Positions 6,044-27,677 of a DNA stretch of 34,411 bases are shown here, one piece after another. The number at the start of each line of letters is the position of its first letter. The first letter of the stretch is position 1. Position numbers and translations under genes: made by a program. The notes under the pieces were generated by a model that was given only the letters and a program-made list of their open reading frames with translations, had not been told where the DNA came from and made no database searches. The stretch is from Verrucomicrobiales bacterium (GTDB taxonomy: Bacteria > Verrucomicrobiota > Verrucomicrobiia > Limisphaerales > UBA1100): positions 1 through 34,411 of the forward strand of contig SYLI01000012.1 in NCBI GenBank assembly GCA_005809105.1, read 5' to 3'.

Positions 6044-6051
6044 TTGCATTG

Positions 6052-6082
6052 AGCAATGGCAAGGGGCGCAGCCCCTATTGCT
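6052..6082. terminator. Stem-loop between convergent sulfatase and aldo/keto reductase genes
   Basis: An interrupted inverted repeat has inner arms AGGGGC (6062-6067) and GCCCCT (6071-6076) around a three-base loop, plus outer arms AGCAAT (6052-6057) and ATTGCT (6077-6082), with a four-base bulge on the left side. It covers the stop codon of the aldo/keto reductase and follows the sulfatase stop by eight bases. There is no T-run on either strand, so it is a possible bidirectional terminator or 3'-end stabiliser. Confidence 0.45.
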
Positions 6083-7079
6083 GAGCGCAGGTCGCCGTGG
6101 CGCGCAGAAATTCCGAGTGCGCCTCTTCGATGGACTGAAGCTCTGCGCGGCCAAGTCGCCACTCTGCCGCGGCGGCGATTTCCGTAATCTGTCCGCTGCG
6201 GCGCGCGCCGACGATGGCGCTGGTCACTTCATGCCGCGCCAGCACCCATGCGGTCGCAAGCTGCCCCACCGAGTGGCCACTTTCCTGGGCAATGGACTGG
6301 AGCCGCGCCACCAGCCTCAGGAAGTGGGGCTTGCGCGGCGGATGCAGCAGCGCGGCGACGGGATGATCGGGCTTGTGGCGGCGCCAGTCGTTGGGCGGCA
6401 GCGCGGCAATCCATGCTTCGGTCACCTTGCCGGTGAGCAGCCCCGATTCCATGGGACTGTACACAAGAAGCCCGCAATCATGCGCGGCGCACCACGCCAT
6501 CTGGCCGCTGGTTTCAATCTGGCGGTTGAGAAGGCTGTAGCGCGGCTGCAGCGACGCGACGGGCCCCAGCCGCTGCGCTCGCTCCATCTGCCCGGCCGAA
6601 AAGTTGGAGACGGCAGGCCAGCGAATCTTGCCCTGCTTCTGAAGGTCCAGCAGAGTCTGCCACGCTTCCTCGACCATGCTGTCGGGCTCGGGCCAGTGGA
6701 GCTGGTAGAGGTCAATCACCTCCACTCCCAGGCGCCGCAGCGAGCCTTCCACCTCTTCCAGGATGGTGCCCCGGGAAATATACCTGCGCGGGAAGCGCTT
6801 TTCGTCGGGCAACACACCGCACTTGGTGGCGACCACCACGGGCTCTTTCCACTCGCGCAGGGCCTTGGCCACCACTTCCTCCGCCACGCCAAATCCGTAG
6901 GCGTGCGCGGTGTCGATCCAGTTGATGCCCGATTCGAGCCCCTCAAGAATGGCCTTGATGGAGTCGCGCTCGTCCTGCGGCCCCCAGCCCATTCCCCAGT
7001 CGCCGCCGCCGATGGCCCAAGTGCCGATGCCCAAAGGGGTGATGTGAAGATCCGTCTTGCCCATGGGGCGAGTTTGCAT
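6075..7079 (-). CDS. Aldo/keto reductase
   Basis: A 334-residue NADPH-dependent aldo/keto reductase (PF00248) expected to reduce sugar or other carbonyls in the cytoplasm. The N-terminus has the family pattern PLGIGTWAIGG (15-25). The catalytic tetrad is visible as Asp56 and Tyr61 in NWIDTAHAYGFG, Lys86 in VVATKCG and His128 in LYQLHWP. VSNFSAGQ and YSPMESGLLTGKV are further conserved blocks. The cofactor-binding end is AIVGARRSGQITE, typical of the AKR11/12-like general stress and sugar reductases. There is no signal peptide, unlike most neighbours. It ends inside a stem-loop shared with the convergent sulfatase. The proline-rich exported protein lies 73 bases upstream on the same strand and may share its transcript. 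The substrate is not predictable. Confidence 0.93.
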   Translation of the reverse strand: MQTRPMGKTDLHITPLGIGTWAIGGGDWGMGWGPQDERDSIKAILEGLESGINWIDTAHAYGFGVAEEVVAKALREWKEPVVVATKCGVLPDEKRFPRRYISRGTILEEVEGSLRRLGVEVIDLYQLHWPEPDSMVEEAWQTLLDLQKQGKIRWPAVSNFSAGQMERAQRLGPVASLQPRYSLLNRQIETSGQMAWCAAHDCGLLVYSPMESGLLTGKVTEAWIAALPPNDWRRHKPDHPVAALLHPPRKPHFLRLVARLQSIAQESGHSVGQLATAWVLARHEVTSAIVGARRSGQITEIAAAAEWRLGRAELQSIEEAHSEFLRATATCAQQ

Positions 7080-7152
7080 GCGCCAGGATTAAAACCCGCA
7101 CCCGCCGCCATTGGCAAGCCGCGGGCGCCCAAGGGGGCGTTTTTGGCGCGGC

Positions 7153-7593
7153 CTAAAAACCGCGGCGCGGCGGCGGAGGCGGGGGCGTCGGGACGCCCGG
7201 GATGGGCCGCGGCGCCATTGGCTGCTCGGCGATGGGAATGAAGTGCAACCCCGTCACCGTCACGGGTTTGCCGTTCATAAAGATGGTGGATTGCGACTGC
7301 TGCAACCATGAAACCATGCCGGTGGCCGTGTCGATTTTTAACACCACCGGGATCGGCTTGCCGTTCGCAGGGGTTTGCGCGGGGAGGAGCTGGAATCGCC
7401 CCGGTTGGATCATCTCCGGCGGAATGTCAGTCGCCACGCCGGGCACTCCTTCGGCGATGTCCGCGGGTGGCGGGGCTGGAACGGGCGCGATGGTGGGATT
7501 CGATGGCTTGGGTTGCGCCTTCGCCGGGCTGGAAAGACACGCCAGCATGATGGCCGCGCTCAAGAGCAAAGGGGGTTTTGTCCTCATAATCAT
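7153..7593 (-). CDS. Small proline-rich exported protein, function unknown
   Basis: 146 residues from the ATG at 7593; a second ATG at 7587 is equally possible. A Sec signal peptide spans about 1-26 (hydrophobic 9-20, ending SSPAKA). The mature part has a proline-rich arm (NPTIAPVPAPPPA) and a compact centre, VVLKIDTATGMVSWL (83-97), followed by a strand pair around FMNGKPVTVTGLHFIPI. It ends in a second proline-rich tail with seven consecutive prolines before RRGF. The centre resembles short exported proteins that carry a KIDT-x-TG-x-(V/A)-W segment, but I cannot name a family. It is divergent from the large membrane-protein gene at 7816 and upstream of the aldo/keto reductase. Confidence 0.6.
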   Translation of the reverse strand: MIMRTKPPLLLSAAIMLACLSSPAKAQPKPSNPTIAPVPAPPPADIAEGVPGVATDIPPEMIQPGRFQLLPAQTPANGKPIPVVLKIDTATGMVSWLQQSQSTIFMNGKPVTVTGLHFIPIAEQPMAPRPIPGVPTPPPPPPRRGF

Positions 7594-7611
7594 GAGCCTG
7601 ACACCGGATGG

Positions 7612-7630
7612 AGTTGCATCAAGTGCAACT
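7612..7630. promoter_or_regulatory. Seven-base perfect inverted repeat, possible operator
   Basis: AGTTGCA (7612-7618) and TGCAACT (7624-7630) are exact inverted copies around TCAAG. The element lies 18 bases upstream of the start of the proline-rich protein gene, within the 222-base region shared with the divergent gene at 7816. It could bind a dimeric regulator or form a short leader hairpin. Confidence 0.3.
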
Positions 7631-7685
7631 TGCGTAGCACCGCCATGCGACGGCAAGAGAGGAGTGTTGACCGATGGTGAAAACT

Positions 7686-7714
7686 TTGTGAACATGTGCC
7701 AGCCGGTTTAGTCT
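7686..7714 (+). promoter_or_regulatory. Candidate sigma70-type promoter for the 7816 operon
   Basis: TTGTGA (7686-7691) and TAGTCT (7709-7714) are 17 bases apart and would place the transcript start near 7721. An AGGAGAGG purine run (7718-7725) follows. That run sits 12 bases before a GTG at 7738 which is in frame with the 7816 gene, so it may instead mark a longer N-terminus. Confidence 0.3.
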
Positions 7715-7815
7715 ATTAGGAGAGGCAAGTCGGCCGGGTGCCAGTGGGAGTGGAGGCGTCAAGTCCAAGGACGAGCGCCCGCAACTTAAGCAGCCGGTTC
7801 ACGCATAGCAAGTCC

Positions 7816-9591
7816 ATGACAGGCACGACAACAACGAGCTCACGCCCATCGGGTTTTCGGCTGGGCGTTGCCTTGCTTTCCGGCATCGGGATCATCGTGC
7901 TGGGTTGGATGCTGCCGGTGTATCAGGGCATGCTGCACCCGGCGGTGGTGGAACGCGCCGGGGCCGGCTCGCAAAGCGCAGGCGCATTCGGCCTTGAACT
8001 GGCAACCAAAAGCTTCCAGCCCAACCCGCAGGCAGCGCGCATTGTGTTGCTGGCGGCGCAATCCGCGCCGGGCGCCGCGCCCGAGGCGGCGGCGAAACTT
8101 AAAGCCGCGCTGGCCGGCACGACGGATCGCGACGCGGGCATCAACTATTTCCTGGCGGGGAAAAACCGGCAGGCGTTTCAGGCCCAACTGCCCGTAGGGC
8201 AGCCCGGCGGCATCGCCAGCGAAGCGGCCCGCATCCTTGAATTGAGCGAGCTGGCAGAGCTGCGCGAGCTGGAGCCGGCCATCATGCTCACGGCATGGCT
8301 GCATTCGCAGAACCTCATCACCGACACGCTCTCGCGCGAGATTCTCAACCACGGCCAGTCCGGCAACATCGCCACGCTGCGGCGCGGTTTCATGGCCGTC
8401 AGCACTCTGGCCGACCAGCTCGACGTGCACCAGCTCATGGCGGTGCTCGACCTCATGCCCGACGTGCGCACGCTCTCGGAGTACTCGCACATCGCGCTCG
8501 TGCAGACGATGTTGCCGCCCTTTGCAAGTCTGGGCAACCACGACAAGGATTTGTTCAAGGACGAGCTGCCCGCGGGCCCGATGCGCGAAATGTTCGACAA
8601 GTTTGACGCGGACAAGAACGGCAAGCTCGACGTGCAGGAATGGCTCTTGCAGGCGCGGATGCCGCTGTCGTACACCGACTTTCCTGCGGGTTACACGGCG
8701 ATGCTTTGGTTGGGCACGCCGGAGGGCGCGCGTCAGGTGGTGCAATACCTTCTCAACCACGGCAGACAGGGCGACGAGTTCCTGTACTGGGCCATCGGCC
8801 AGGGCAGGGGCGCGGTGGAATTTGTCGTGCGGCACGGCGGGGCACTGGGCCAGCGCCGTGGCTCTGGCTTGGATGCGCTGGCGGTGGTGGGGTTCCGCAA
8901 CCCCGGCATGGCGATGGTGCTGCGCTACGTGCTCTTTGGTCTTGGCGCCCTGCTGTTGGTGTGGGTTTGGAACCGCCTCTGGCCGCTGGCCGCTCGTGGC
9001 ACGGGGGATTTGCCCGGCTACTTGTGGAACCGGCGCGCGCTGGCGGTGGCGGGGGCGCTGGTGCTGGCGATGATCAGCGAGCCCATGTTCTTTCAGACGG
9101 CGCAATCCTCCGAATACGACGTCGCCATCAAGCTTCCTCTTGCCGCAGCGGCTGCCGACGCAGCCAAAGCGTCCCCAGTGAACGTCAAAGACAAACGCAA
9201 CGCACCTATGACCGGAAACATCGCCACCTCGGACATGTGGAGAAACGTCGTGATGACGCTTCTTTTCGCCGCCATCCAAATCTGGGTTTACCTGACCTGC
9301 GTGCAAAAGATCCGCCAGATCGAGGAGGATTCGGCGGAGCCGCGCCTCAAGCTCCGGTTGCTGGACAATGAAGACAACTTTTTTGACATGGGCCTGTACA
9401 TCGGCATCGGCGGCACGGCGCTCGGTCTGGCGTTGATCATGCTCGAGGTCTTCCAGAAACCCGTGGCGGCGTACGCCTCCAACATCTTTGGGATCATGTG
9501 CGTGGCGGCTGTGAAAATCTGGCACGTCCGCCAGGCCAAGAAACGCCTTATCATCCAGGTTCGCAAGGCCGAGGGCGTTGCCGCCCTCTAG
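7816..9591 (+). CDS. Six-helix membrane protein with EF-hand loop and ExbB/TolQ/MotA-like C-terminal hairpin
   Basis: 591 residues from the ATG at 7816; an in-frame GTG at 7738 would add 26 residues. Predicted helices lie at about 16-36, 366-388, 408-424, 477-496, 523-546 and 552-569. Basic residues put both ends in the cytoplasm and residues 37-365 in the periplasm. The periplasmic part is helical and Ala/Leu-rich, and carries one complete EF-hand loop, DADKNGKLDVQE (264-275), with Asp264, Asp266, Asn268, Asp272 and Glu275 at the usual calcium positions. The last three helices have the order and orientation of ExbB/TolQ/MotA. The fifth contains GIGGTALG (530-537), close to the GLxGTVxG motif of those proton channels. 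The cytoplasmic loop between helices four and five is short, about 26 residues. The stator relationship is my inference; the family is unnamed to me. The next gene starts 13 bases downstream. Confidence 0.8.
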   Translation: MTGTTTTSSRPSGFRLGVALLSGIGIIVLGWMLPVYQGMLHPAVVERAGAGSQSAGAFGLELATKSFQPNPQAARIVLLAAQSAPGAAPEAAAKLKAALAGTTDRDAGINYFLAGKNRQAFQAQLPVGQPGGIASEAARILELSELAELRELEPAIMLTAWLHSQNLITDTLSREILNHGQSGNIATLRRGFMAVSTLADQLDVHQLMAVLDLMPDVRTLSEYSHIALVQTMLPPFASLGNHDKDLFKDELPAGPMREMFDKFDADKNGKLDVQEWLLQARMPLSYTDFPAGYTAMLWLGTPEGARQVVQYLLNHGRQGDEFLYWAIGQGRGAVEFVVRHGGALGQRRGSGLDALAVVGFRNPGMAMVLRYVLFGLGALLLVWVWNRLWPLAARGTGDLPGYLWNRRALAVAGALVLAMISEPMFFQTAQSSEYDVAIKLPLAAAAADAAKASPVNVKDKRNAPMTGNIATSDMWRNVVMTLLFAAIQIWVYLTCVQKIRQIEEDSAEPRLKLRLLDNEDNFFDMGLYIGIGGTALGLALIMLEVFQKPVAAYASNIFGIMCVAAVKIWHVRQAKKRLIIQVRKAEGVAAL

Positions 9592-16172: not shown

Positions 16173-19127
16173 CTAGGGCAGATACACGAATTCGTTGGTT
16201 TGAAGCAGCACCTGCGCGAGCTTCTCCCACGGCGCCAAGGGTTGCTGGCTTGGGGTGCGCCCCGCCTGCGGCGGACGCTGCGAACCCTTAGCCTTGGCCT
16301 TGCCTTTGCCAGCCGGCTTGACCGTGGATGGCGTGGCTTTGGGCGCCGGTTCGACGGGCTTTTGCTGCTCCACAAACGCCAGCGCGGCGGCCGTCTCCGC
16401 TGCGGTGGGCGCTCGTTGGAAGAGGATTTCGTAGAGGGCACTCACCTTGTCCTTTGGCGTCTGGCCCTGTTGCACGACGGACCGGGCCGCCAGCCTGCGC
16501 GATTGCTCCAGCACGAAGGGGCTGTTCATGAGATAGAGCGCCTGCTGCGGCACCGTGGTCTCGATGCGCTCGGCCGAGCTCATGTCCGGATTGGCAAAGT
16601 CAAACACCTGAAACATGCCGGGAAGCTCGGCACGATTGACGTACCCGTAGACCGTGCGGCGCGTGGAGCCGGTCAAAAGATTGGCCGGAGGGCCCCGGCG
16701 CGCGGGGTCAAGATTGTCGCCCGCCGCCAGGAGCGTGTCGCGCATCGCCTCCAAATCCAGCCGCCGAACCGGCCATTTCCACAGGAGCTTGTTGGCGGGA
16801 TCGGCCTCCGAGAAATCGCGGCTGCCGGTGGACGCCTGCTGGTACACGCCCGAACTCATGATGAGGCGGTTGAGCTTCTTGATGGACCAGCCCTCGTTGA
16901 TAAACCACTGCGAGAGCCAATCGAGAAGTTCGGGATGCGAGGGCGCCTCGCCGCGCAGGCCGAAGTCGCTGGGGGTGCGCACGATTCCCTCGCCGAAATG
17001 CCATTGCCACACGCGGTTGACGATGACCCGTGCCGTGAGCGGGTTCGTGGGCCCGGCGATGGCACGCGCCAGATCGAGCCGGCCGCTGCCTTCGCTGAAG
17101 GGCTTGCGCGCCGCGCCTTCCACCAGATTCAGAAACTGTCGGGGAACACGGTCGCCCAGGTTCGCGCGCTCGCCGCGAATGAGAATGCGCGAGTCGCGCA
17201 CCTGCGGCGCATCCTTGATGGCCATGGCTCTCACCGGCGAACCCGGATGGGTGATGTCCAATTGCGTGAGGGCTTCCAGCATGGTCTGTTGCCGGTTGCG
17301 CACGCGATTGCCCACAAACCGGCCGACTTCGCGCGGATCGAGCCCCAGCGGCGTGCGCACCTCAAACACCATCTGCCGGAGTGCTTCGCTGTCCGGATCG
17401 GCCAGCGCGGGAACCGCCGGCTCCCGGGCGGCAACACGGCGCCGCTGCGCGCCACCCGCTTCAGGGCGCCCGGTGGCAGCCAGTAAATGGGCCGTGGGAT
17501 ACTGGCCCTTCATCTGTTTTTCCACCGCGGAAAACACGCCCGCGTAAATGTTGGCAACCTCGCGGAGTGATTTGGGTTCCGCTCCCGCGAAGGCCTTGGC
17601 GACGATGGGGTTTGCCTTCACCGTGCCCTCACCGGCGGCGATGCGCCCGGCCAGCGCCTTGGCAGCGGCGGCAAATTCTTTCTCGGGAAGCCCGGCAAAT
17701 TGGAACCAAGGGTCGAACACGGGGTTGGGTTGTTTCTTCCACGCGGCAAGGCTCGCGGCCCATTGTTCAAAGGCCGCGGTGTTGAGGCTCGCTTCGCGCG
17801 CCACGGCCGCCGCCTGCTTGCTGGCGGTCTTTCCATCCAAAAGGCGCTGCGCCTGCATGAGGTAGTCGGCCGAGCTCTTCGTCAGATCGGACAAGAGGGT
17901 GTTGTACTCGCGAAGGGCGTATTCATGGGCTTCCTTCTGCACCTTCTCCCGCGCGGCCATGTAGTCGCGGTAGGCGGGCGTGTCGCTATTGTCCGCAAGC
18001 GCGGGGCGGTCGTCCTGGCTGCTGGCAAACACACCATGGAGCGAATAATAGTCCGCCGTGGGGATCGGATCGAACTTGTGGTCGTGGCAGCGTGCGCAGG
18101 AGACCGTCAAACCCATGAACCCCTTGGACACCACGTCAATCCGGTCGTCAATGACCTCGTTGGCGTCGTTCATGAATCGCTTGCCCACGGTGATGAAGCC
18201 CAGCGCGGCGAGGTCTTCGCGGCGCGCGCCCGGCAGGGCATCGGCGGCGATCTGCTCCATGATGAACTGGTTGTAGGGCTTGTCGGTGTTAAACGCCTCG
18301 ATCACCCAGTCGCGGTAGGTCCACGCGAAGGGGAACGCCGGATCGGGGCGGTTGCCTCCCGCGCGGTCGCCGCTGTTATCCGCGTAACGCGCGACATCCA
18401 GCCAGTAGCGGCCCCACCGCTCGCCGTACTGCGGAGTAGAAAGGAGCCGGTCAACCACCTTGGCAAACGCGTCGGGTGCGGTGTCGGCGCAGAAGGCCTC
18501 CGTCTCGGCGAGTGTCGGGGGAAGGCCGGTCAAGTCGTAGTGCGCCCGACGCAGAAGAAGCCGCTTGTCTGCGGCCGGAGCGGGGGTGATTTTCGCCGCG
18601 CGCTGGCTTTCCCGGATGAACGCGTCGATGGGATTGCGCACCCAGGAATCCTTCGTGGCCGGCACCTGCGGCCGGGACAGCGGCTGAAAGGCCCAGTGAG
18701 CGCGGGCTTGCGCCTCGGTGTAAAAAACCTTGCGCGCGCCTCCCGTGGACGGGCCAATGCGAGGATCGGGCGCACCCAGGCGGATCCACGTTTCAAGATC
18801 CGCCACCTGCTCGGCACTGAGCGCGGTCTTGGGCGGCATCACCAGCTTGGGATCGGCGCGGCGCACGGCCTTGATGAGCAGGCTTGCCTCGGGCTTGCCG
18901 GGCTCAATGGCTTCGCCACTGTTGCCGCCGGCCAGCAGCGCCTCGCGGGTGTCGAGGGCCAGACCGGCCTTGGCCTTGGTCGCGCTGCTGTGACACTCGT
19001 AGCAGTTCTGCGCCAGAATGGGCCGGATGCGTTTCTCAAAAAACTCGACCTGCTTGGGATCGAGTTTGTCGTCGGCAAACAGCAGCGAACCCAGGCTGGC
19101 CAGAGCGGCGGTGAGCAGTGGTTTCAT
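16173..19127 (-). CDS. PSD1 module B: PSCyt1-DUF1549-DUF1553 cytochrome protein
   Basis: 984 residues with a Sec signal peptide (1-18, ending SLLFA). The PSCyt1 domain has CYECH (Cys42, Cys45, His46) and LVMPPKTALS as the Met-containing loop. DUF1549 (about 165-370) has RLLLRRAHYDLTGLPPT, YGERWGRYWLDVARYADN and [11 protein letters not shown] (Cys344, Cys347, His348). DUF1553 begins near 690 (NPLTARVIVNRVWQWHFG) and shows QALYLMNSPFVLEQSRRLA. Residues 923-967 form a Lys/Pro/Ala-rich linker (AGKGKAKAKGSQRPPQAGR inside it) that interrupts the end of DUF1553; the closing KLAQVLLQTNEFVYLP block follows. That insertion is unusual. The gene follows its DUF1501 partner by 24 bases, reversed relative to modules A and C. 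No ribosome binding site is evident. Confidence 0.92.
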   Translation of the reverse strand: MKPLLTAALASLGSLLFADDKLDPKQVEFFEKRIRPILAQNCYECHSSATKAKAGLALDTREALLAGGNSGEAIEPGKPEASLLIKAVRRADPKLVMPPKTALSAEQVADLETWIRLGAPDPRIGPSTGGARKVFYTEAQARAHWAFQPLSRPQVPATKDSWVRNPIDAFIRESQRAAKITPAPAADKRLLLRRAHYDLTGLPPTLAETEAFCADTAPDAFAKVVDRLLSTPQYGERWGRYWLDVARYADNSGDRAGGNRPDPAFPFAWTYRDWVIEAFNTDKPYNQFIMEQIAADALPGARREDLAALGFITVGKRFMNDANEVIDDRIDVVSKGFMGLTVSCARCHDHKFDPIPTADYYSLHGVFASSQDDRPALADNSDTPAYRDYMAAREKVQKEAHEYALREYNTLLSDLTKSSADYLMQAQRLLDGKTASKQAAAVAREASLNTAAFEQWAASLAAWKKQPNPVFDPWFQFAGLPEKEFAAAAKALAGRIAAGEGTVKANPIVAKAFAGAEPKSLREVANIYAGVFSAVEKQMKGQYPTAHLLAATGRPEAGGAQRRRVAAREPAVPALADPDSEALRQMVFEVRTPLGLDPREVGRFVGNRVRNRQQTMLEALTQLDITHPGSPVRAMAIKDAPQVRDSRILIRGERANLGDRVPRQFLNLVEGAARKPFSEGSGRLDLARAIAGPTNPLTARVIVNRVWQWHFGEGIVRTPSDFGLRGEAPSHPELLDWLSQWFINEGWSIKKLNRLIMSSGVYQQASTGSRDFSEADPANKLLWKWPVRRLDLEAMRDTLLAAGDNLDPARRGPPANLLTGSTRRTVYGYVNRAELPGMFQVFDFANPDMSSAERIETTVPQQALYLMNSPFVLEQSRRLAARSVVQQGQTPKDKVSALYEILFQRAPTAAETAAALAFVEQQKPVEPAPKATPSTVKPAGKGKAKAKGSQRPPQAGRTPSQQPLAPWEKLAQVLLQTNEFVYLP

Positions 19128-19151
19128 GCGGGAGAACGGGCGGCCCCGGCT

Positions 19152-20561
19152 TCAGGCGATGAGGTTGCCCACCACGTTGCCATACACATCGGTCAGGCGG
19201 AAATCGCGCCCGCTGTGGCGGTAGGTGAGCTTCTCGTGGTCAAAGCCCATGAGCTTGAGCACCGTGGCATGCAGGTCGTGGACATGCACCTTGTCCTTCA
19301 CGGCGTCGTATCCGAATTCGTCGGTGGCGCCGTGGACGACTCCGCGCCTCACGCCGCCGCCGGCCAACCACATGGAAAAGCCGCGGTGGTGATGATCGCG
19401 GCCCGGTTCGGCGCGCCCGCCACGGTCATGGCGCGGGGTGCGGCCAAATTCGCCACCCCAGACGACCAGGGTTTCATCCAGCAGGCCGCGTTGCTTGAGG
19501 TCCTTGAGCAGCGCGCCGATGGGCTGGTCGCACTCGCCGGCGCGACGGGCCACATTGGTCTTTACGTCCTGATGGTGATCCCAACCGTTGTGCCACACCT
19601 GCACAAAGCGCACGCCGCGCTCCACCAGCCGCCGGGCCGTGAGCAGCCGGTCGCCCATCTGCGTGGCGCCGTAGAGGGCGCGCATGTCCGTGTTTTCTTT
19701 CGTCAGGTCAAAGGCATCGGTGGCGGCCGTCTGCATCTTGAAAGCCAGTTCGAAGGACTGGATGCGCGCTTCGAGCGCGGACTCCGCTTCCAGCGTCTTC
19801 TTGTGCTGGGCGTTGAGTTTCGCAAGAAGGTCCATCTGCTGGCGCTGCTCTTCGAGGGTGAGGCTGTAGTTTTTGATGTTCTCGATGGCGCGCTCGACAT
19901 TGCCCCCGGTGTTGCTCACCAGTGTGCCCTGGAAGGCGCCCGGCAGGAACCCCGAACGCCAGTTCTTGGCGCCGCCCAGGCCGCCGCCCAGCGCGATGAA
20001 TCCCGGCAGGTTCTGGTTGTCGGTGCCCAGTCCGTACAGAAGCCACGATCCCATCGAGGGCTTCACCATCCGGCCCGATCCGGTGTTCATCATCACGGTC
20101 GCAAATTCATGCGAGGGGATGTCGGTGTGCATGGAGCGGACAACCGCGACTTCGTCGATGCTCTCGCCAATCTTGGGGAACACTTCGCACACCTCGGTTC
20201 CGCACTTGCCCATCTTGGTGAACTTGAAAGGCGAAGGCAGCGGGACACCGCCGATTTCCTTGACGTTGGTGTCGGCAAACTTGGCCATGCCCGGCTTGGG
20301 ATCCCACGTGTCCAGATGCGTGGGGCCTCCCTGTGCGAAGATGTGAATCACGCGCTTGGCCTTCACCGGGAAATGGGGCTTGCGCGGCAGGGAGGGCGAC
20401 GCGGTGGCCAGCTGCTGCAACGCCGCGGAAGGGTTGCCCAATGTCTCTGGCAGCATCGTGGCCAGGCCCAACGCTCCCATTCCCATGCCGAAGCGCCCGA
20501 GAAACTGGCGCCGAGTCTGGAAAAAATCCTGCAGCTGCGGTCGGTGTTCTTGAATGTTCAT
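19152..20561 (-). CDS. DUF1501 protein, Tat-exported (module B)
   Basis: 469 residues from the ATG at 20561, chosen because AAGG lies five bases upstream and because it places the twin-arginine motif TRRQFLGRFGMGMGALGLA near residue 17. An upstream in-frame start at 20639 would bury the signal. Conserved DUF1501 blocks are [83 protein letters not shown] and GRDHHHRGFSMWLAGGGVRRG. The C-terminus carries HDLHATVLKLMGFDHEKLTYRHSGRD, shortened in module A. The His-rich metal-site residues look intact. It is the first gene of the pair and is separated from PSD1-B by only 24 bases. Confidence 0.92.
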   Translation of the reverse strand: MNIQEHRPQLQDFFQTRRQFLGRFGMGMGALGLATMLPETLGNPSAALQQLATASPSLPRKPHFPVKAKRVIHIFAQGGPTHLDTWDPKPGMAKFADTNVKEIGGVPLPSPFKFTKMGKCGTEVCEVFPKIGESIDEVAVVRSMHTDIPSHEFATVMMNTGSGRMVKPSMGSWLLYGLGTDNQNLPGFIALGGGLGGAKNWRSGFLPGAFQGTLVSNTGGNVERAIENIKNYSLTLEEQRQQMDLLAKLNAQHKKTLEAESALEARIQSFELAFKMQTAATDAFDLTKENTDMRALYGATQMGDRLLTARRLVERGVRFVQVWHNGWDHHQDVKTNVARRAGECDQPIGALLKDLKQRGLLDETLVVWGGEFGRTPRHDRGGRAEPGRDHHHRGFSMWLAGGGVRRGVVHGATDEFGYDAVKDKVHVHDLHATVLKLMGFDHEKLTYRHSGRDFRLTDVYGNVVGNLIA

Positions 20562-20680
20562 ATTTGCCTTATTACTGCCGGAGACGCCGGATTTTGGACA
20601 ATGGACTTGCAATGGGGAGGATACGCAATTTGCCCACAAAGGCTGCTGGAAAAACTCGGGGATTCTGACGGAGGAAGGCT

Positions 20681-20806
20681 CTAGTCAGACTTTGACCTCA
20701 GGAGCCTGACCGCCCCCAACATCGCCGCCACCATCAGTCCCAGCCAGAGCAGGTCGCTGGTGTGCCAGTGCAGTTGTGAGGTGAGGTGGGCAAAAGTCGG
20801 TTGCAT
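20681..20806 (-). CDS. Possible small single-helix membrane protein
   Basis: A 41-residue frame from the ATG at 20806 to a TAG at 20681. It contains a hydrophobic helix LLWLGLMVAAMLGAVRLL followed by RSKSD, so it would be an N-out or N-in membrane peptide with a basic end. It lies between the module C terminator and the DUF1501 gene of module B, with 119 bases to the latter. There is no Shine-Dalgarno sequence, and a longer start at 20911 crosses the terminator hairpin and is unlikely. I do not recognise a family; it may be a chance frame. Confidence 0.3.
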   Translation of the reverse strand: MQPTFAHLTSQLHWHTSDLLWLGLMVAAMLGAVRLLRSKSD

Positions 20807-20867
20807 GTTGGTGTGTGTGTAACAGAGCAGGGGCACCCGTGGCAAGCGGGCGGCCCGAGCAGGCAGC

Positions 20868-20891
20868 AAAAAACCCCGCCCGAAGGCGGGG
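20868..20891 (-). terminator. Rho-independent terminator of module C
   Basis: Read on the minus strand, CCCCGCC and GGCGGGG form a seven-base-pair GC stem (20885-20891 with 20874-20880) around a stable TTCG tetraloop, directly followed by six T (20868-20873). It lies 29 bases after the stop of the DUF1501 gene and ends the PSD1-C/DUF1501 transcript. Confidence 0.9.
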
Positions 20892-20919
20892 CTTGAAACC
20901 AGTTGGGTCAATTCAAAGG

Positions 20920-22224
20920 CTAGAAGAGCTGCGGAATAACGTTTCCGTTGCGCACGATCATCACCGGGCGACCTGTCGGAGTGTTGTACTCCTTGGCGTA
21001 GTCCACTCCCAGCGCATTGAAGTAACTGGCCGCCACGTCATCCGGCGTGATGGCCTTGTCCTTCGGGCCTTCACCCTTGGCGTCGGACGCGCCAATCACC
21101 TGGCCGCCCTTCATGCCGCCACCGGCCATCACGCAGAACATGGCGCGCGGATAGTGATCGCGGCCGGCGCGCTGGTTGATCTTTGGCGTGCGCCCGAATT
21201 CGCCCGTCACCAAGACGGCCGTGCTGTCGAGCAGCCCCTTGGCATGAAGCGCCAGCAGCAGGCCCGACAGGCCCGCGTCAAGCTGTGGCAAGAGCCGCGT
21301 CTTGAGCGAGGGGAAGTTGCCGTTGTGCGTGTCCCAGCCGCCCAGGTTCAAGGTGACAAACCTCACGCCCGCCTCCACCAGCCGCGTGGCCAAGAGGCAG
21401 CTTTGGGAGAAGTCCTGCTTGTCGAACAGGTTCACCACCGCCTCCGACTCGCGCGACAGGTCAAACGCCTCGCGCGCCTTGGTGGAACGCATCATGGCGT
21501 AGGCCTTGCTGCTGAACTCGTCCATGCCGGAGAGCACCTTGTCTTCCTTGGCAAACTCGCCAAAGGCCTGGTCGTACTTCTTGATGAGGTTCTGCCGCCG
21601 ATCCACGTCCTCCAGCGTCACGCCGTTGCGAAGTGCGAGGCCACGCACTTCCATGCGCACTCCAGCGCGAGGCGCTGCACCGGTGTCAAAGGGTCCGTAC
21701 TCCACGCCGAGGTAGCCGGTGGGATAGTCGCCCTGATTGGGGATGGCCACGAACGCGGGCATCTCAGGCGAGCTGCCCTTCTCACGGCTCATCACCGCGC
21801 CGTACGTCGGATAGCGCAGGGATGGCACGGGGCGATTGCCGGTCATCATGTACAACGTGCCCAGGTTGTGCGCCGCCAGGGTGTGGCTCACACCTCGCAG
21901 GATGACATATTTATCAGCGCACTTGGCCAGCTTGGGCATATGCTCGCAAATGCGCATGCCAGGCACGTTGGTCGCCGTCTCCTTGAACTCGCCACGGTGG
22001 GTCTCGGGCGCGTCAGGCTTGAGGTCAAACGAATCCATGTGGCTGGGGCCGCCGACCAGCCGGATGAGAATGCCCGCCTTGGCCTTGGCAGAGGGGTTCA
22101 CCGCGCCTTCCTTGCCCATCGCCAGGAAACGGGAGAGGCCCATTCCAATGCCCATGCCCGTCAACGCTCCCACCCGGAGGAAGTCGCGCCGCTGGACGCC
22201 GTCGCAGAATAGATGTGTTGCCAT
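20920..22224 (-). CDS. DUF1501 protein, Tat-exported (module C)
   Basis: 434 residues. The ATG at 22224 has a strong AGGAG (22231-22235) six bases upstream. The Tat signal is QRRDFLRVGALTGMGIGMGL (about 11-30). DUF1501 blocks are AGILIRLVGGPSHMDSFDLKP, VILRGVSHTLAAHNLGTLYM, TRLVEAGVRFVTLNLGGWDTH, AVLVTGEFGRTPKINQRAGRDHY and RAMFCVMAGGGMKGGQVIGAS. It is shorter and more diverged than the module A and B copies, and lacks the HHH triple of module B (RDHYPRA instead). The gene starts 35 bases after the PSD1-C stop and is followed by a clear terminator, so the two form one operon. Confidence 0.92.
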   Translation of the reverse strand: MATHLFCDGVQRRDFLRVGALTGMGIGMGLSRFLAMGKEGAVNPSAKAKAGILIRLVGGPSHMDSFDLKPDAPETHRGEFKETATNVPGMRICEHMPKLAKCADKYVILRGVSHTLAAHNLGTLYMMTGNRPVPSLRYPTYGAVMSREKGSSPEMPAFVAIPNQGDYPTGYLGVEYGPFDTGAAPRAGVRMEVRGLALRNGVTLEDVDRRQNLIKKYDQAFGEFAKEDKVLSGMDEFSSKAYAMMRSTKAREAFDLSRESEAVVNLFDKQDFSQSCLLATRLVEAGVRFVTLNLGGWDTHNGNFPSLKTRLLPQLDAGLSGLLLALHAKGLLDSTAVLVTGEFGRTPKINQRAGRDHYPRAMFCVMAGGGMKGGQVIGASDAKGEGPKDKAITPDDVAASYFNALGVDYAKEYNTPTGRPVMIVRNGNVIPQLF

Positions 22225-22259
22225 GTCGTTCTCCTGTTGGTTTTCGGTTGTTTTCTAAA

Positions 22260-24836
22260 TCAGTGGTTGACCATGAACTCTTTGGTGTTCAGCAAAGCCC
22301 AAAGCAAATCGCGCACGCCGATGTAAGTCTCCTGCGCCGCCGCAAGATCCGCCTTGGCCTGATCCATCTCCTTGGCCGTGGGCTGGCGGCTCAGGGTTCG
22401 AAGGAACGCCTCCTCGACGATCTGCTCGGGCTTGGCGGCGGTGCCTGTCTTGGATTGCGCGGCCCGGCGCACCTCATCCACCCAACTGCCGGTCTCGCGG
22501 CTTGCCTGCTCCAGGCGGCCCAGCATTTCCGGATCGTTGCGCGTGTAGATGGTTTGGAGCAGGGTGGGGTCGCTGGTGCGCTCGCAGTCGCAGTTGGTCT
22601 CGCGCGCGGGCTTGCCAAAGATGTTCAGCATGTAGGAGGAACCCGTGCGCCGCTGCCCGGGCGCGTTGTAACCCAGGCTCTGCGGGCCAATGGCGCGGAT
22701 CTCCATGTTGGAGGCGAATTCCGCCGCCTTGGAGGCGGAGGCGCTGGCCAGGCTCATGGCGTCGGCCACCACCTCAGCCGGAAGGCGGCGGATCATTTGG
22801 TGGCTGAAGTTTTTGTCGTCGTGCTGATTGGTGGGATTGGTCTTCCACGAGCGCTGGTAGGTGTCGCTATTGAGGATCTCGCGGTGAAGCCACTTCATGT
22901 CGTAGCCGCTCTGCACGAAGCCGTCGGAGAGGTAGTCCATCAATTCGGCATTGGAGGGCGGGTTGGCAAGGTTCTGGTCGTCGGCAGGCTCCACCAGCCC
23001 GCGGCCAAAGTAGCTGGCCCAAGTGCGGTTGACGAAGGCGCGCGCAAAGTAAGGGTTGTTCTTGTCCTTGAGCCACGCCATCAGAGGCTGGCGCGGATCG
23101 GGGAACTCCGCCGCCACCACCTGGGTTCCACCCAGCAGTTTGGGTGTGATGACCCGGCCGGCAAAGTTGGGGTTGCGCCGCTTGTTTTGTTCAATCTCGC
23201 GCTCGGTCAACCGGCGCGTCGGGGGCGCCAGCACAAAAACCTCCTGCCACGGCACCGGGTCGCCTGTCTTAAGGCGGGCGTTTGCGGCGCGCTGGATCTG
23301 GTTCTGGGGGTTGGTGTTGTTGGCGTCGACGTTGGCCTCGGAGCGGATCGTGGCGGTGAGCTTGTTGTAATTGAAATCCCCATCCTCCTTGCGCACCTGC
23401 TGGGCGAAACGCAGCGGCTCAAAGAAGGCCTGGAACTGCTGAAAATCCTGCTGGGTCCATTGGTCAAAGGGGTGCTTGTGGCACTGGGCGCACTGGATGC
23501 GCACACCCAGAAAGCTGTAGGCGAAGGCCATCGCCTTCTCCTCGGCCATGCGCAGGTTCTGGCGCGACCAGAACCACGGCATGTTTTCGCGCTCGGCGAA
23601 GCTCACCGGATCCTTGTCGCGGAAGTAGCCTCCCATTTCCTTGCACATGTCCTCAAAAGTTTGATCGGGCTTGGTGCGCGTGGTGGCCAGTACGATGCCT
23701 TCGATGAGCTTGTCGTAGGGGACATTGTTGGCGATGCGGTGGTTGAGCCAGTCGTACCACTGGCGCGCCAGGGTGGTCTGAAGGTTGTTGCCAATATTAT
23801 TATTGAGGCGCAGTTGCTGGGCGCTGTTGCCGGTGTAGTCAGAGAGCTTGGTGGCCCACCACGCCGCGTAGCCGGGGCGACTGAGTAATTCGTCGATCTT
23901 GCGTGAGCGCTTGTCGGCGCGGCGATCCGCCGCAAATTGCCGCGCTTCGTCGGGCAAGGGCAGCGTGCCTGTGATGTCCAGACTGGCGCGGCGCAGGAAT
24001 TCCGCATCGCTGCAAACGTCCGCCGGCAGGATGCCCACCTTGCGCAGCTTTTGAATCACCAGCTGATCCACCTTGGTGCGGCCCGTCACCTTGGGGTACT
24101 TGGCGCCGTTTTGCGCGCTCACGGGAAGCATCACCGGGATGGGATGCACGCCGTTGTCATAAAACACCACCACGTGGGAATCGCCCTTGCCCAGCACTTT
24201 CACGATGCCGTCCTCGCTGACTTCCGCCACCGATTCGTCGTTGGTGCGGAATCGGGAAAGCTGCGTGACATCCTCCACCGTGCCATCCTTCCAGTGCGCC
24301 AGCACTCGCAGCGCAACCTTGTCGCCCGGCTTGGTGAACACGATTTCCTTCGGGGTCACCTCCAGCCGGTCAAACGTGCCGGTGGCCTCCACATCCAGCT
24401 TGGCCCCCTGCTGGATCCATTTGAGGAACACGTTGTGCTCCCAGCTGCCTTCGTCGTAACGGCGCCCGCCCTTGTGGGCGACTTGCTTGGTGGGCTTCTG
24501 GATGAACAGGCTCTTTTCCGGCTCCTCCAAATTCACCCGGATGCGGTACTCCTTATCGGCCGTGATGGCCTTGTGATCCTTCTCAAAGTCGTATCCAAAG
24601 AGGGACAGGCGAAAGTCGCCGCGCCCCTGGAACGAGCCATGACACTCGCGGCCACTGCAACCAAGCTTGCTGGCCAAAGGAACCACATGCCGGCGGAAAC
24701 TGGGGCTCTCAGCCGTGGCAATCTTGCCGCCGAAGCGCTCATTGGCCGTCTGAAGCTTGGCGCCGGCAGCTTGTGTCGTCGGTGCGAGCGCGACCGCCAG
24801 CACCAAGGCCCATGGCAGGAAAAATCGCAAATTCAT
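22260..24836 (-). CDS. PSD1 module C: BIG2-DUF1549-DUF1553 protein with CX4CH site
   Basis: 858 residues with a signal peptide (1-24, ending TTQAA). Instead of a CxxCH cytochrome domain, the N-terminus has KLGCSGRECHGSFQGRGDFR, a CX4CH site (Cys60, Cys65, His66) of the subclass that continues RLSLFGYD. Residues about 155-240 are a bacterial Ig-like (BIG2) domain (FDRLEVTPKEIVFTKPGDKV ... VAEVSEDGIVKVLGKG). DUF1549 runs from about 255 to 475, with FLRRASLDITGTLP and CAQCHKHPFDQW (Cys449, Cys452, His453). DUF1553 runs from about 585 (NPYFARAFVNRTWASYFGRG) to the end (YIGVRDLLWALLNTKEFMVNH). The predicted location is the periplasm. It is first in an operon with the DUF1501 gene. The function is presumed redox, substrate unknown. 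Confidence 0.92.
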   Translation of the reverse strand: MNLRFFLPWALVLAVALAPTTQAAGAKLQTANERFGGKIATAESPSFRRHVVPLASKLGCSGRECHGSFQGRGDFRLSLFGYDFEKDHKAITADKEYRIRVNLEEPEKSLFIQKPTKQVAHKGGRRYDEGSWEHNVFLKWIQQGAKLDVEATGTFDRLEVTPKEIVFTKPGDKVALRVLAHWKDGTVEDVTQLSRFRTNDESVAEVSEDGIVKVLGKGDSHVVVFYDNGVHPIPVMLPVSAQNGAKYPKVTGRTKVDQLVIQKLRKVGILPADVCSDAEFLRRASLDITGTLPLPDEARQFAADRRADKRSRKIDELLSRPGYAAWWATKLSDYTGNSAQQLRLNNNIGNNLQTTLARQWYDWLNHRIANNVPYDKLIEGIVLATTRTKPDQTFEDMCKEMGGYFRDKDPVSFAERENMPWFWSRQNLRMAEEKAMAFAYSFLGVRIQCAQCHKHPFDQWTQQDFQQFQAFFEPLRFAQQVRKEDGDFNYNKLTATIRSEANVDANNTNPQNQIQRAANARLKTGDPVPWQEVFVLAPPTRRLTEREIEQNKRRNPNFAGRVITPKLLGGTQVVAAEFPDPRQPLMAWLKDKNNPYFARAFVNRTWASYFGRGLVEPADDQNLANPPSNAELMDYLSDGFVQSGYDMKWLHREILNSDTYQRSWKTNPTNQHDDKNFSHQMIRRLPAEVVADAMSLASASASKAAEFASNMEIRAIGPQSLGYNAPGQRRTGSSYMLNIFGKPARETNCDCERTSDPTLLQTIYTRNDPEMLGRLEQASRETGSWVDEVRRAAQSKTGTAAKPEQIVEEAFLRTLSRQPTAKEMDQAKADLAAAQETYIGVRDLLWALLNTKEFMVNH

Positions 24837-24972: not shown

Positions 24973-27138
24973 TCACTCATTGAAGGCTTTGGGGCGGTTG
25001 ATAGATTCCACGAAGCTCTCCGCGGTGGCAAAGACGGCCTGGGACTTGCCCGGCGGGGTGTCGAGAAAGAGCACGAAGTCCAGCGTCCGGCTGGCTTGGC
25101 CCCGTTCGCTGGCAAACTTGCGCGCGATGCCCAGTGCCGGCAGCGTGTCTTTGCCCAAAATCCGCTCCATGGGGAAGGAAAGCAGGCCGTCGTAGCTGCG
25201 GTACACCAGCTCGGTGCAGACCACCTTGTCGTCGGTGCCAAAGTCGAAGTTGAAATCGTAGGGTTTGCCGTGGTGGGTAAAGGCACGGCGCAGCGCCTGA
25301 GCAATCTGTTCACGCGACAGCCGCGGGCGCAGCACGGCCACGTAGTCGGCGTGCAGCGAGTGTTCAAGCGAGGAGAAGACGACGCCTTCGCTGACGGCCT
25401 CCACGATGACGCGCGGATGGCCGTTCTCGGGTGCGGTGTAGGCTTCCCAATGCGCGCGCACCTCGGGCGCCTGGTCGATTCCCAAGGCGCGCAGCTGCTC
25501 GGGCGTGCCCACATAGAGCGCGGCATGAGGCCAGAAGCCCGGAAGAAATGCGTTGGACAGATACCAGTTGCGCCGCTCCAACAGGATGTCGCCGGGCTGC
25601 AATTGTGGCCGGAGTTCCTCCAACTGCGCCTCCGAGATGTTCGGTGCGCGGGTGGAAATGCGCGTGTCTCCCACCAGCGTGGCCATGAGAATCTGCGCTT
25701 CGTACACGGGCGAGTACACGTCGCGCTGAGCGCGTCGCACGATGCGCGAAAAGCGGGCGCGCCACGGGTTGAGCCCGGTTTGGCGCACCTGGCGCACGGC
25801 GTCGTCGATGCGCCGCTCCAGCCATTGCATCTGCTCGTCGGAATAGGCCTGCGCGGCGCGCAGCGCCCGGCGCCGTTCGGGCCGCTCAAAGTCGTCGGCC
25901 AAGCCCAAGAACCAGCGCAGGTGCCCGCCTGAGGTGACGCTGTAGTAAACGTGGTCAAACATCCCCGCCTCCAGGCCCCACGCGGGCGCGGCCTCGTTCA
26001 GTTTGGCGCGGGCGCGGGCGTCGTCGCGGTAGCGCGCCACAAACTCGTGCCCGGTCTCCAGCGCCGTCGCGGCGGCGCACAGGCCCAGCAGATACGCCCT
26101 TCCCCGCAGCCGCTCGTCGGTGACGGCCTTGTGCCCGGCGTACATCGCCACCATGCTGGTGAGCGCGTCGCGGTGCGCCAGATAGCGGATGAAACACCAG
26201 CGGATCCGGTCGTCCTCCCGGGGCGTGTACACCTCCCGGCCTTCGGCGCGCAGCGCCGCCACCACCTGCCCGTGCAGCGACGCCGCCTCAGCGCGAAGCG
26301 CCTCCAGTTCCGCCGCGTGGATTTTCAGCCGGTCCAAATCCTCGGCGGTCTGCCGCGCCAACTGGTCGTGCGGCATGGCGATGATGGCCGCGGGGAACAG
26401 CTCGAAGGGACTGGGCGGCGCGACACTGACGCGGCCAATGTAGAAGCCGCCTCCCGCCAGCAGGGCCAACAGGCCCGCCATCGAGGCCAGACTGGCCCAG
26501 CGCGGCCATCTCGTGGCATGAGGCGGGCGCGCCGCCAGCCATGAGAAAACGATGCCGCAGGAACCCGCCGCGGCGGCCAGCGCAGCCATGGTGGCCGCGA
26601 GATTCCACCATGCCGGCGCGGGAGCCATCAGCTTCTGGCGGAACATCAACACCACCAGCAGGGCTCCCAAGGCGCCGGTGCCCGCCAGCGTGGCTTTGCC
26701 GCGCTTGCTCTCCCACCGGGCGCCCGCGCGCCAGAGGATTTGCAGCAAGCCAAGGAACACCGAGGCCACCACCGTGGCGCCCCACAAGCGCCAGCCCAGA
26801 TTGGTGGGATGCAGCCGCCACGGTTCGAACCAAACCAGAAGCTGGTAAAACACCTGCGAGGCGAGCACACACAGCAGCGCCGCCCGGCCCATCGCGGTGA
26901 GAGGCCGGTCTGCCGGATGGCTCGCCCGGGCCAGCGCCAAGCCCACAAGTATGCCCACGGCACTGAAGACCAGTTGCGCGTGCAATCCCGAGAACCGGCC
27001 CCGGCCAAATCCCGCAAGCAGCAGCATCAACAGCGCCGCTGCCGTGCCCCAAAACAACTGCCGATAGGCCCGGCGCAACGCGGCCAAACCCTCCGGTTCG
27101 CCGGCCGCCGGTGAGGACTGCCCCGTGGCGGACGTCAT
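24973..27138 (-). CDS. Seven-helix membrane protein fused to YaeF/YiiX-type (C92) cysteine peptidase domain
   Basis: 721 residues. Residues 1-235 hold about seven hydrophobic helices (29-46, 52-71, 84-103, 119-137, 152-167, 179-204, 216-234). Residues 258-300 are a probable coiled coil, and 305-500 a helical region I cannot name. The end (about 512-695) matches the permuted papain-like YaeF/YiiX family (PF05708): LQPGDILLERRNWYLSNA, then His538 in FWPHAALYVG, Glu580 in VIVEAVSEGV and Cys641 in VVCTELVYRSYDG, all expected catalytic or conserved residues. Members act on amide or thioester bonds of peptides or lipoproteins, but the substrate here is unknown. YiiX proteins are usually small and soluble, so the large membrane part is unusual. 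The gene overlaps the upstream thioredoxin-fold gene by four bases. Confidence 0.8.
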   Translation of the reverse strand: MTSATGQSSPAAGEPEGLAALRRAYRQLFWGTAAALLMLLLAGFGRGRFSGLHAQLVFSAVGILVGLALARASHPADRPLTAMGRAALLCVLASQVFYQLLVWFEPWRLHPTNLGWRLWGATVVASVFLGLLQILWRAGARWESKRGKATLAGTGALGALLVVLMFRQKLMAPAPAWWNLAATMAALAAAAGSCGIVFSWLAARPPHATRWPRWASLASMAGLLALLAGGGFYIGRVSVAPPSPFELFPAAIIAMPHDQLARQTAEDLDRLKIHAAELEALRAEAASLHGQVVAALRAEGREVYTPREDDRIRWCFIRYLAHRDALTSMVAMYAGHKAVTDERLRGRAYLLGLCAAATALETGHEFVARYRDDARARAKLNEAAPAWGLEAGMFDHVYYSVTSGGHLRWFLGLADDFERPERRRALRAAQAYSDEQMQWLERRIDDAVRQVRQTGLNPWRARFSRIVRRAQRDVYSPVYEAQILMATLVGDTRISTRAPNISEAQLEELRPQLQPGDILLERRNWYLSNAFLPGFWPHAALYVGTPEQLRALGIDQAPEVRAHWEAYTAPENGHPRVIVEAVSEGVVFSSLEHSLHADYVAVLRPRLSREQIAQALRRAFTHHGKPYDFNFDFGTDDKVVCTELVYRSYDGLLSFPMERILGKDTLPALGIARKFASERGQASRTLDFVLFLDTPPGKSQAVFATAESFVESINRPKAFNE

Positions 27139-27677
27139 TTGCCGGCGGCTTCCACCGCCTTCACGACCGGGGGCGCGTCCGTCTCATTGAGCGAGGCGTA
27201 CGCGAACCGGGCGTGAATCTTGCCCTGCACCACCACCAGCGTGGTGACGAGCGCGCGGTCGTTGAGTTGCCAGGCGGGCGGACCGGCGGCGTCGCCAGGA
27301 AAGAGGGCCAGCGCGCAAGACTTGAACTTGAGCGCCTCATGCACGCGCGGCAGTTGGGCTTTAGTCTTCTCCTTGTCGGCCGCAAGCCACACCGCCACCA
27401 AGTACCCGCCCTTGTTTTGACTCGTGAGTGCGTCGTCGAGCGCGCGCAAGTACCTTGCCGCCGGCCGGCCCCATCCTTCCTCGCGCATCAGCACGTACAC
27501 GGTGGTTTCCGCCTTGCGCAACGCCGGGTAGTCCACCTTTTTCCCCGCATGGGAGCCTGTGATGTCCTGGATTTCCAGCGCCGGAACCTTCACGCCCACC
27601 TTGGGGCCAGATTCCAATTCGGCCGCGCCCGCCGCGAAGGCCGCGCCCAAGAGAAGCAGGATGAACTTGAACTTCAT
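27135..27677 (-). CDS. Exported thioredoxin-fold protein lacking the CxxC motif
   Basis: 180 residues with a Sec signal peptide (1-19, GAAFAAGAA). The mature part begins like AhpC/TSA or TlpA-type proteins (GVKVPALEIQDITG, 28-41). A strand TTVYVLMREEGWGRPAARYL (58-77) follows, where the redox-active WCxxC would normally sit. Here no cysteine is present there; the only Cys in the mature protein is Cys121 in SCALALFPGD. The rest (GYLVAVWLAAD, VTTLVVVQGKIHARFAY, VVKAVEAAGK) fits the thioredoxin fold. It is probably a binding rather than redox protein. It is translationally coupled (ATGA overlap) to the membrane peptidase, so the two likely act together. The fold call is by pattern only. Confidence 0.65.
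   Translation of the reverse strand: MKFKFILLLLGAAFAAGAAELESGPKVGVKVPALEIQDITGSHAGKKVDYPALRKAETTVYVLMREEGWGRPAARYLRALDDALTSQNKGGYLVAVWLAADKEKTKAQLPRVHEALKFKSCALALFPGDAAGPPAWQLNDRALVTTLVVVQGKIHARFAYASLNETDAPPVVKAVEAAGK

Follow-up and report, generated by a model that had tools for sequence, protein, structure and literature searches.

The known YaeF/YiiX members of peptidase family C92 (PF05708) are short proteins, among them YiiX of E. coli (2if6) and BcPPNE of B. cereus (3kw0). According to the cited passages of Xu et al. (PMC3142127), YiiX was crystallised with a fatty acid, the permuted members have a hydrophobic S1 site, a conserved tyrosine is the fourth catalytic residue, and the amidase activity of YiiX is a proposal only; a passage of PMC10318531 calls C92 members lipid amidases. 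In the passages cited, the functions of the bacterial YaeF/YiiX-like proteins are termed poorly understood (PMC7387801) or unknown (PMC3142127). The protein described here is encoded in a window (the whole stretch of DNA analysed, 34,411 nucleotides) from a Verrucomicrobiales bacterium. It shares with these proteins the PF05708 profile, the permuted residue order, the four catalytic residues and the fold, but here the C92 domain is preceded by seven membrane helices and a helical domain.

Staphylococcus aureus LnsA, which acts with LnsB, is likewise a YiiX-like enzyme of lipid acyl transfer at the membrane (PMC7387801, cited passage). However, LnsA needs a separate membrane partner, whereas the window protein has its membrane part in the same chain and Lnt is encoded in its genome. 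Tox-Act1 and TseH combine the permuted fold with the His and Cys residues and have reported phospholipase activity, Tox-Act1 cleaving phosphatidylglycerol and phosphatidylethanolamine (PMC12994826, cited passages). These two are secreted interbacterial effectors, whereas the window protein is chromosomal and membrane-bound, with no toxin context seen. The LRAT/HRASLS acyltransferases and phospholipases A (PF04970) apply permuted NlpC/P60 chemistry to phospholipid acyl chains; we propose the likeness by analogy, although PF04970 is absent among the Pfam matches of the window protein at E up to 1. Finally, LplT-Aas (acyl-[ACP]-phospholipid O-acyltransferase, NF006386) is a single polypeptide in which a membrane module is joined to PlsC and another lipid enzyme. 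It has no C92 domain, but it adjoins a relative of the window protein at one locus (L034).

Domains and genomic setting of the window protein

The gene, its upstream neighbour and the features of its product lie on the minus strand:

27135..27677, minus: upstream gene, 180 aa, with a 4-base overlap at the C92 gene start
24973..27138, minus: C92 membrane-protein gene, 721 aa (ATG-started open reading frame, translation, orthologues)
26425..27093, minus: predicted seven-helix membrane domain, residues 16-238 (AlphaFold2, hydropathy, 15-member alignment)
25666..26370, minus: predicted all-helical domain, residues 257-491, about 235 residues (AlphaFold2, conservation)
25141..25605, minus: PF05708 (Peptidase_C92) match, residues 512-666 (profile match, 3kw0_B fold match)
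25525..25527, minus: codon of His538, predicted catalytic (sequence position, conservation)
25399..25401, minus: codon of Glu580, predicted third catalytic residue (sequence position, conservation)
25258..25260, minus: codon of Tyr627, counterpart of the superfamily signature tyrosine (alignment to 2if6, PMC3142127, conservation)
25216..25218, minus: codon of Cys641, predicted catalytic (sequence position, conservation)

Since full-length orthologues occur in the same genus (75% identity) and the same family (46-51% identity), the open reading frame is a real gene. It is the only one matched by PF05708 in its genome, which is about 96% complete. The profile search returned 69.6 bits against a cut-off of 27 (E 4.4e-19), in agreement with the YaeF/YiiX assignment of the original prediction. 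Its numbering of His538, Glu580 and Cys641 was also correct, and Tyr627 completes the set that it had left one residue short. The four residues follow the permuted order His, Glu, Tyr, Cys, and each is invariant in 66/66 rows of our alignment (A3); of 26 more distant members, all keep His, Glu and Cys and 25 keep Tyr. Tyr627 aligns with the YDF tyrosine of YiiX (2if6; match E 8.4e-4).

The AlphaFold2 model, built from 66 aligned sequences, has a mean pLDDT of 89.6 and a pTM of 0.75, and its alpha/beta domain begins at about residue 503. A Foldseek search with the full-length model had no match with E at or below 0.001. Re-alignment of the Foldseek candidates ranked 3kw0_B, the B. cereus C92 enzyme, first, with residues 504-693 of the model superposing at Z 12.8 (rmsd 2.4, 148 aligned residues). 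The window protein belongs to C92 by profile, residues and fold, and as modelled its C-terminal domain is a circularly permuted papain-like fold of the C92 type. The YiiX equivalog NF007458 scored 26.7 bits against a cut-off of 216; DUF4105/Lnb is absent among the Pfam matches at E up to 1, and the window protein itself has no match to PF01553 (PlsC).

The hydropathy profile shows seven peaks between residues 27 and 235 and a weak eighth at 237-255, and AlphaFold2 places seven long helices at 16-238, both of which bear out the seven membrane helices first proposed. The original prediction further named a coiled coil and an unnamed helical domain of about 200 residues. The latter stands, at about 235 residues and without any Pfam family at E up to 1 for residues 257-491, but the supposed coiled coil is better read as the single 43-residue helix (257-299) with which this domain opens in the model. 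Asn381-Glu382 of a KLNE motif in the helical domain are invariant in 66/66 rows of A3, and in the more distant members the N is kept in 20/26 and the E in 18/26. The membrane and helical domains have generic helical fold matches only (Z at most 9.2 and 10.8, respectively), with no Foldseek match at E 0.001.

The C92 gene is surrounded by DUF1501, PSCyt/PSD1, cytochrome and oxidoreductase genes, none of which encodes a lipid enzyme. Two PSCyt2/PSD1 plus DUF1501 gene pairs adjoin it at 16173-24836 on the minus strand, one of them with a PSCyt1 cytochrome domain. The product of the 180-aa upstream gene has a signal-peptide-like N-terminus, as read by eye, and matched no Pfam or NCBIfam family. 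Its homologue also adjoins the C92 gene in G001 (L003/L025, one contig) and G008 (L014), and it is a possible operon partner of the window gene. It had been regarded as a conserved neighbour; among the gathered loci, its place beside the C92 gene is confined to the same genus and a single other genome of the family, and the idea of a conserved operon partner was rejected on this ground.

A shared helical-C92 core with varied N-terminal modules

A first search for relatives covered 58 genomes, that of the window included, and found matches in 25. Full-length members of the same family have open frames of 715-774 codons with the layout of the window protein. Five matches from other families of the order have frames of 965-1015 codons in which PF01553 stands ahead of the core (5/5 scanned); these families have further matches in shorter frames. 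Genomes of the window's family also contain frames of about 200-350 codons that weakly match the C92 part only (e.g. G003:C57 and G011:C57; none in G000), which are perhaps ordinary YiiX-like proteins.

A scan of the GTDB species collection gave 404 related stretches, of which the best 80 were retained. PlsC and the core, or part of the core, share one open reading frame in 42 of these, and in 21 the N-terminus is a multi-helix region like that of the window protein (hereafter the 7TM form; two of the 21, L029 and L030, are nearly identical). The remaining 17 are cut at contig ends, frame-broken or have other N-termini. Thus, the helical domain and the C92 domain form a shared core that carries varied N-terminal modules. 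The original prediction implied that membrane-fused C92 proteins are rare; instead they are numerous, at least 21 of the best 80 loci sharing the exact architecture, and these relatives rule out a lone architecture. The architecture is thus not unique, but no description of it, or of the PlsC and CDP-alcohol phosphatidyltransferase fusions below, was found among the matches listed in the open-licence literature. The cited passages of PMC12419801, on papain-like domains, are silent on these fusions.

From the PlsC fusions 41 members were extracted, and 32 full-length ones were aligned. All 32 matched both PF01553 and PF05708, and NH....D (NHxxxxD), FPEG and the four C92 residues are invariant in them. 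The best NCBIfam matches of the fused PlsC domains are general phospholipid acyltransferases in 32/32; lyso-ornithine lipid acyltransferase models are also matched, in 29/32 and 11/32, below the cut-off where scores are shown. The model of one fusion, L079 (pLDDT 84.2, pTM 0.51), superposes on PlsC 5kym with Z 17.9 (rmsd 2.9, 189 aligned) and on 3kw0 with Z 12.6 (rmsd 2.8, 151 aligned). In L057 (4882-7932, MAG), the PlsC part occupies the frame directly preceding that of the core, with one in-frame stop between them, which is either a sequencing error or a mark of a pseudogene. The window's genome has three PF01553 genes, which look ordinary. The best of them scores 47 bits against the fused-PlsC profile, compared with 134-497 bits for the fused members (the highest scores come from the profile-building genomes), and the idea of a separate copy of the fused PlsC in that genome was rejected.

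In a quick maximum-likelihood tree of 66 cores, the 38 rows of the PlsC form are split by a branch with SH-aLRT 94 from those of the 7TM form, to which 23 rows were assigned by label (L041 and L043 among them, with incomplete N-termini). The 7TM-labelled rows group with the frame-broken L044 at SH-aLRT 90; by a warning of the program, long outgroup branches may be joined falsely in this tree. Both forms are present in records titled Planctomycetota and Verrucomicrobiota, although some MAG titles are doubtful: L030 is titled Planctomycetaceae yet is nearly identical to L029. The 7TM-form alignment holds 15 sequences including the window protein.

A search of the phylum covered 288 genomes that are at least 80% complete and gave matches in 43, 35 of them above 100 bits; the other eight are weak and lie in frames of 118-305 codons. 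The N-termini of 20 loci from the stronger matches were classified by eye: four have a lipobox, three a Sec-type signal, five three membrane helices, one PlsC and one a CDP-alcohol phosphatidyltransferase, and six are without visible signal. L115, L117, L118, L120, L121 and L122 are members of 447-491 codons that hold the helical-C92 core and show no visible export signal; they are perhaps a cytoplasmic branch. The catalytic His lies in G.FKHG, as opposed to GFWPHA, in L114, L116, L119, L123, L124 and L135, four of these six having a lipobox and one a Sec-type signal.

The CDP-alcohol phosphatidyltransferase fusion (L127:887-3334 in G330, and L129-L132) is a single open reading frame for this enzyme, three membrane helices and the helical-C92 core. 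Among the 31 genomes searched in one order, with the query genome counted, five have it. The fused enzyme of L127 matched PF01066 with 35.6 bits (cut-off 22). Both active-site residue sets are invariant in 5/5, that of the transferase being D..DG..R..G...D...D, which we take to be its signature. In G351, the transferase and the core are separate neighbouring genes. Together with the five loci with three membrane helices, G351 makes six loci examined, in all of which a homologue of the CDP-alcohol phosphatidyltransferase gene lies upstream of the core gene on the same strand, adjoining it in three and separated from it by two genes in three (PF01066 confirmed for the two scanned). Because four of the genomes share genus code g104, the six loci represent about three lineages; G144 is a seventh candidate. 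In L136, L137 and L138, proteins of DUF3943/OMP_b-brl and DUF3187 (families identified in L138) are encoded between the transferase and C92 genes.

Placement of the active site and genes beside the 7TM form

The predicted inside loops of the 7TM form hold on average 11.9 Lys and Arg residues and the predicted outside loops 4.4 (mean of 21 members), and this bias places the C92 domain outside. In 21 of 23 members without PlsC (including L059 and L083, putatively 7TM), the 15 residues preceding the last membrane helix have a higher net positive charge than the 15 following it, and the same bias is seen in 36 of 41 members with PlsC. The lipobox and signal-peptide forms of the core agree with an outside C92 domain. 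From the charge distribution and these exported forms, the C92 active site is probably periplasmic, which gives a likely answer to the question, raised with the original prediction, of the side that it faces. Export of the core is not universal, as six of the 20 loci are without visible signal. How often the PlsC form crosses the membrane is ambiguous; if its C92 domain is outside, a hydrophobic stretch of L079 near 298-337 must not fully cross the membrane.

In L034, a Planctomycetota record, a 1143-aa LplT-Aas gene (4515-7943) lies about 30 bases upstream of the 7TM C92 gene on the same strand and scores 1263 bits against NF006386 (cut-off 1221, equivalog level). No other clear phospholipid enzyme was found beside 7TM members among the part of the neighbours that was scanned. 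These neighbours include an SSF transporter, YchF, Obg, a TIM barrel, a PTR2 transporter, a PQQ repeat, thioredoxin, aminotransferases and a kinase, and suggest nothing about function. A 766-aa frame two places upstream of the 7TM C92 gene of L051 (5122-7419) has weak DCC1-like and MBOAT_2 matches, the latter just over the cut-off. A 1138-aa frame beside L038, considered as a second LplT-Aas, matched no family and may be a false open reading frame. Elsewhere in the window's genome, the NF006386 profile matched an Aas-like gene and, with its LplT half, a transporter; this is a loose test, since 13 of 14 control genomes also give some match.

Candidate reactions of the core

The lipid context of the core is strongly suggested. 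The membrane-anchored, lipid-modifying enzyme of the original prediction gains weight from the fusion of the core to PlsC (32/32) and to CDP-alcohol phosphatidyltransferase (five genomes), from the transferase genes near six loci, from LplT-Aas beside L034 and from the lipid-acting permuted NlpC/P60 relatives. Since these fusion partners and neighbours belong to phospholipid synthesis and repair, we favour acyl-ester chemistry on phospholipids. The window protein may be a cysteine acyl-hydrolase or acyltransferase that is embedded in the membrane and acts in phospholipid remodelling in the manner of LRAT/HRASLS, with its C92 domain on the periplasmic face of the inner membrane; we give this a little less than an even chance. 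His538, Glu580, Tyr627 and Cys641 would attack a fatty-acyl ester of a membrane phospholipid, an acyl-thioester would form on Cys641, and the acyl chain would pass from there to water or a second lipid by LRAT/HRASLS-like chemistry. The lysophospholipid could be re-acylated by enzymes of the PlsC or LplT-Aas type, fused or encoded nearby in many relatives. In this scheme we infer the periplasmic side, the acyl-ester substrate, the thioester step and the coupling to re-acylation. Against phospholipid remodelling, the window form has no fused lipid enzyme and non-lipid neighbours, and among the neighbours scanned a clear lipid enzyme adjoins just one 7TM locus (L034); the YiiX equivalog is far below its cut-off, six of 20 members have no visible signal, and the crossings of the PlsC form are ambiguous. 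Xu et al. instead propose an amidase for YiiX in the passages cited (PMC3142127).

The original prediction also suggested an amidase, a candidate activity taken from the family name. Amide chemistry would fit an enzyme for the synthesis or cleavage of a special acyl lipid, such as N-acyl-phosphatidylethanolamine or a lipo-amino acid, and not for the recycling of ordinary phospholipid chains. HRASLS enzymes produce N-acyl-phosphatidylethanolamine (PMC7387801, cited passage), cleavage of fatty acid-amino acid amides was proposed for YiiX by Xu et al. (PMC3142127, cited passage), some fused PlsC domains match the lyso-ornithine models, below the cut-off where scores are shown, and the CDP-alcohol phosphatidyltransferase fusion hints at a head-group step. 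We nevertheless consider a special lipid rather unlikely, as the best matches of the fused PlsC are general phospholipid acyltransferases throughout and no specific lipid can be named. Canonical NlpC/P60 members are cell-wall hydrolases, and this precedent, with the probably periplasmic C92 domain, would suit a membrane-held peptidoglycan or peptide hydrolase. However, the partners are lipid enzymes, the hydrophobic S1 site of permuted members was judged unfit for peptides (PMC3142127, cited passage), and the permuted members tested act on lipids (PMC12994826, cited passage), which leaves such a hydrolase highly improbable.

A probably periplasmic site would also serve a lipoprotein acyl-modifying enzyme, either N-acyltransferase or deacylase, like LnsA of S. 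aureus or Lnb of Bacteroides. YiiX-like LnsA is needed with LnsB for lipoprotein N-acylation (PMC7387801), and DUF4105/Lnb is a permuted NlpC/P60 lipoprotein N-acyltransferase (PMC12994826), as stated in the passages cited. However, Lnt scores over the cut-off in the window's genome and in 53 of 58 relatives, so the N-acylation step is not vacant; this weakens the lipoprotein reading, and the idea of a missing Lnt was dropped as the leading one. The fusion partners, moreover, are phospholipid-synthesis enzymes and DUF4105 is unmatched at E up to 1, and we regard a role on lipoproteins as unlikely.

Returning to the remodelling of phospholipids, it is possible, if on the doubtful side, that lipids are remodelled by a two-sided machine with the helical-C92 core as its outer half and that the 7TM protein of the window sets the same half on a different membrane module. 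A fused chain would then combine a cytoplasmic PlsC or CDP-alcohol phosphatidyltransferase site with a periplasmic thiol acyl-hydrolase or acyltransferase, coupling inner-leaflet synthesis to outer-leaflet editing.

A large C92 subfamily fused to, or encoded beside, phospholipid-synthesis enzymes provides a direct and testable clue to function. The PlsC-C92 fusions could serve as they are as constructs in complementation and lipidomics. Should the two-sided topology hold, phospholipid synthesis and the editing of the outer leaflet would be linked across the membrane by a single chain in Planctomycetota and Verrucomicrobiota, phyla whose membranes are of wide interest.
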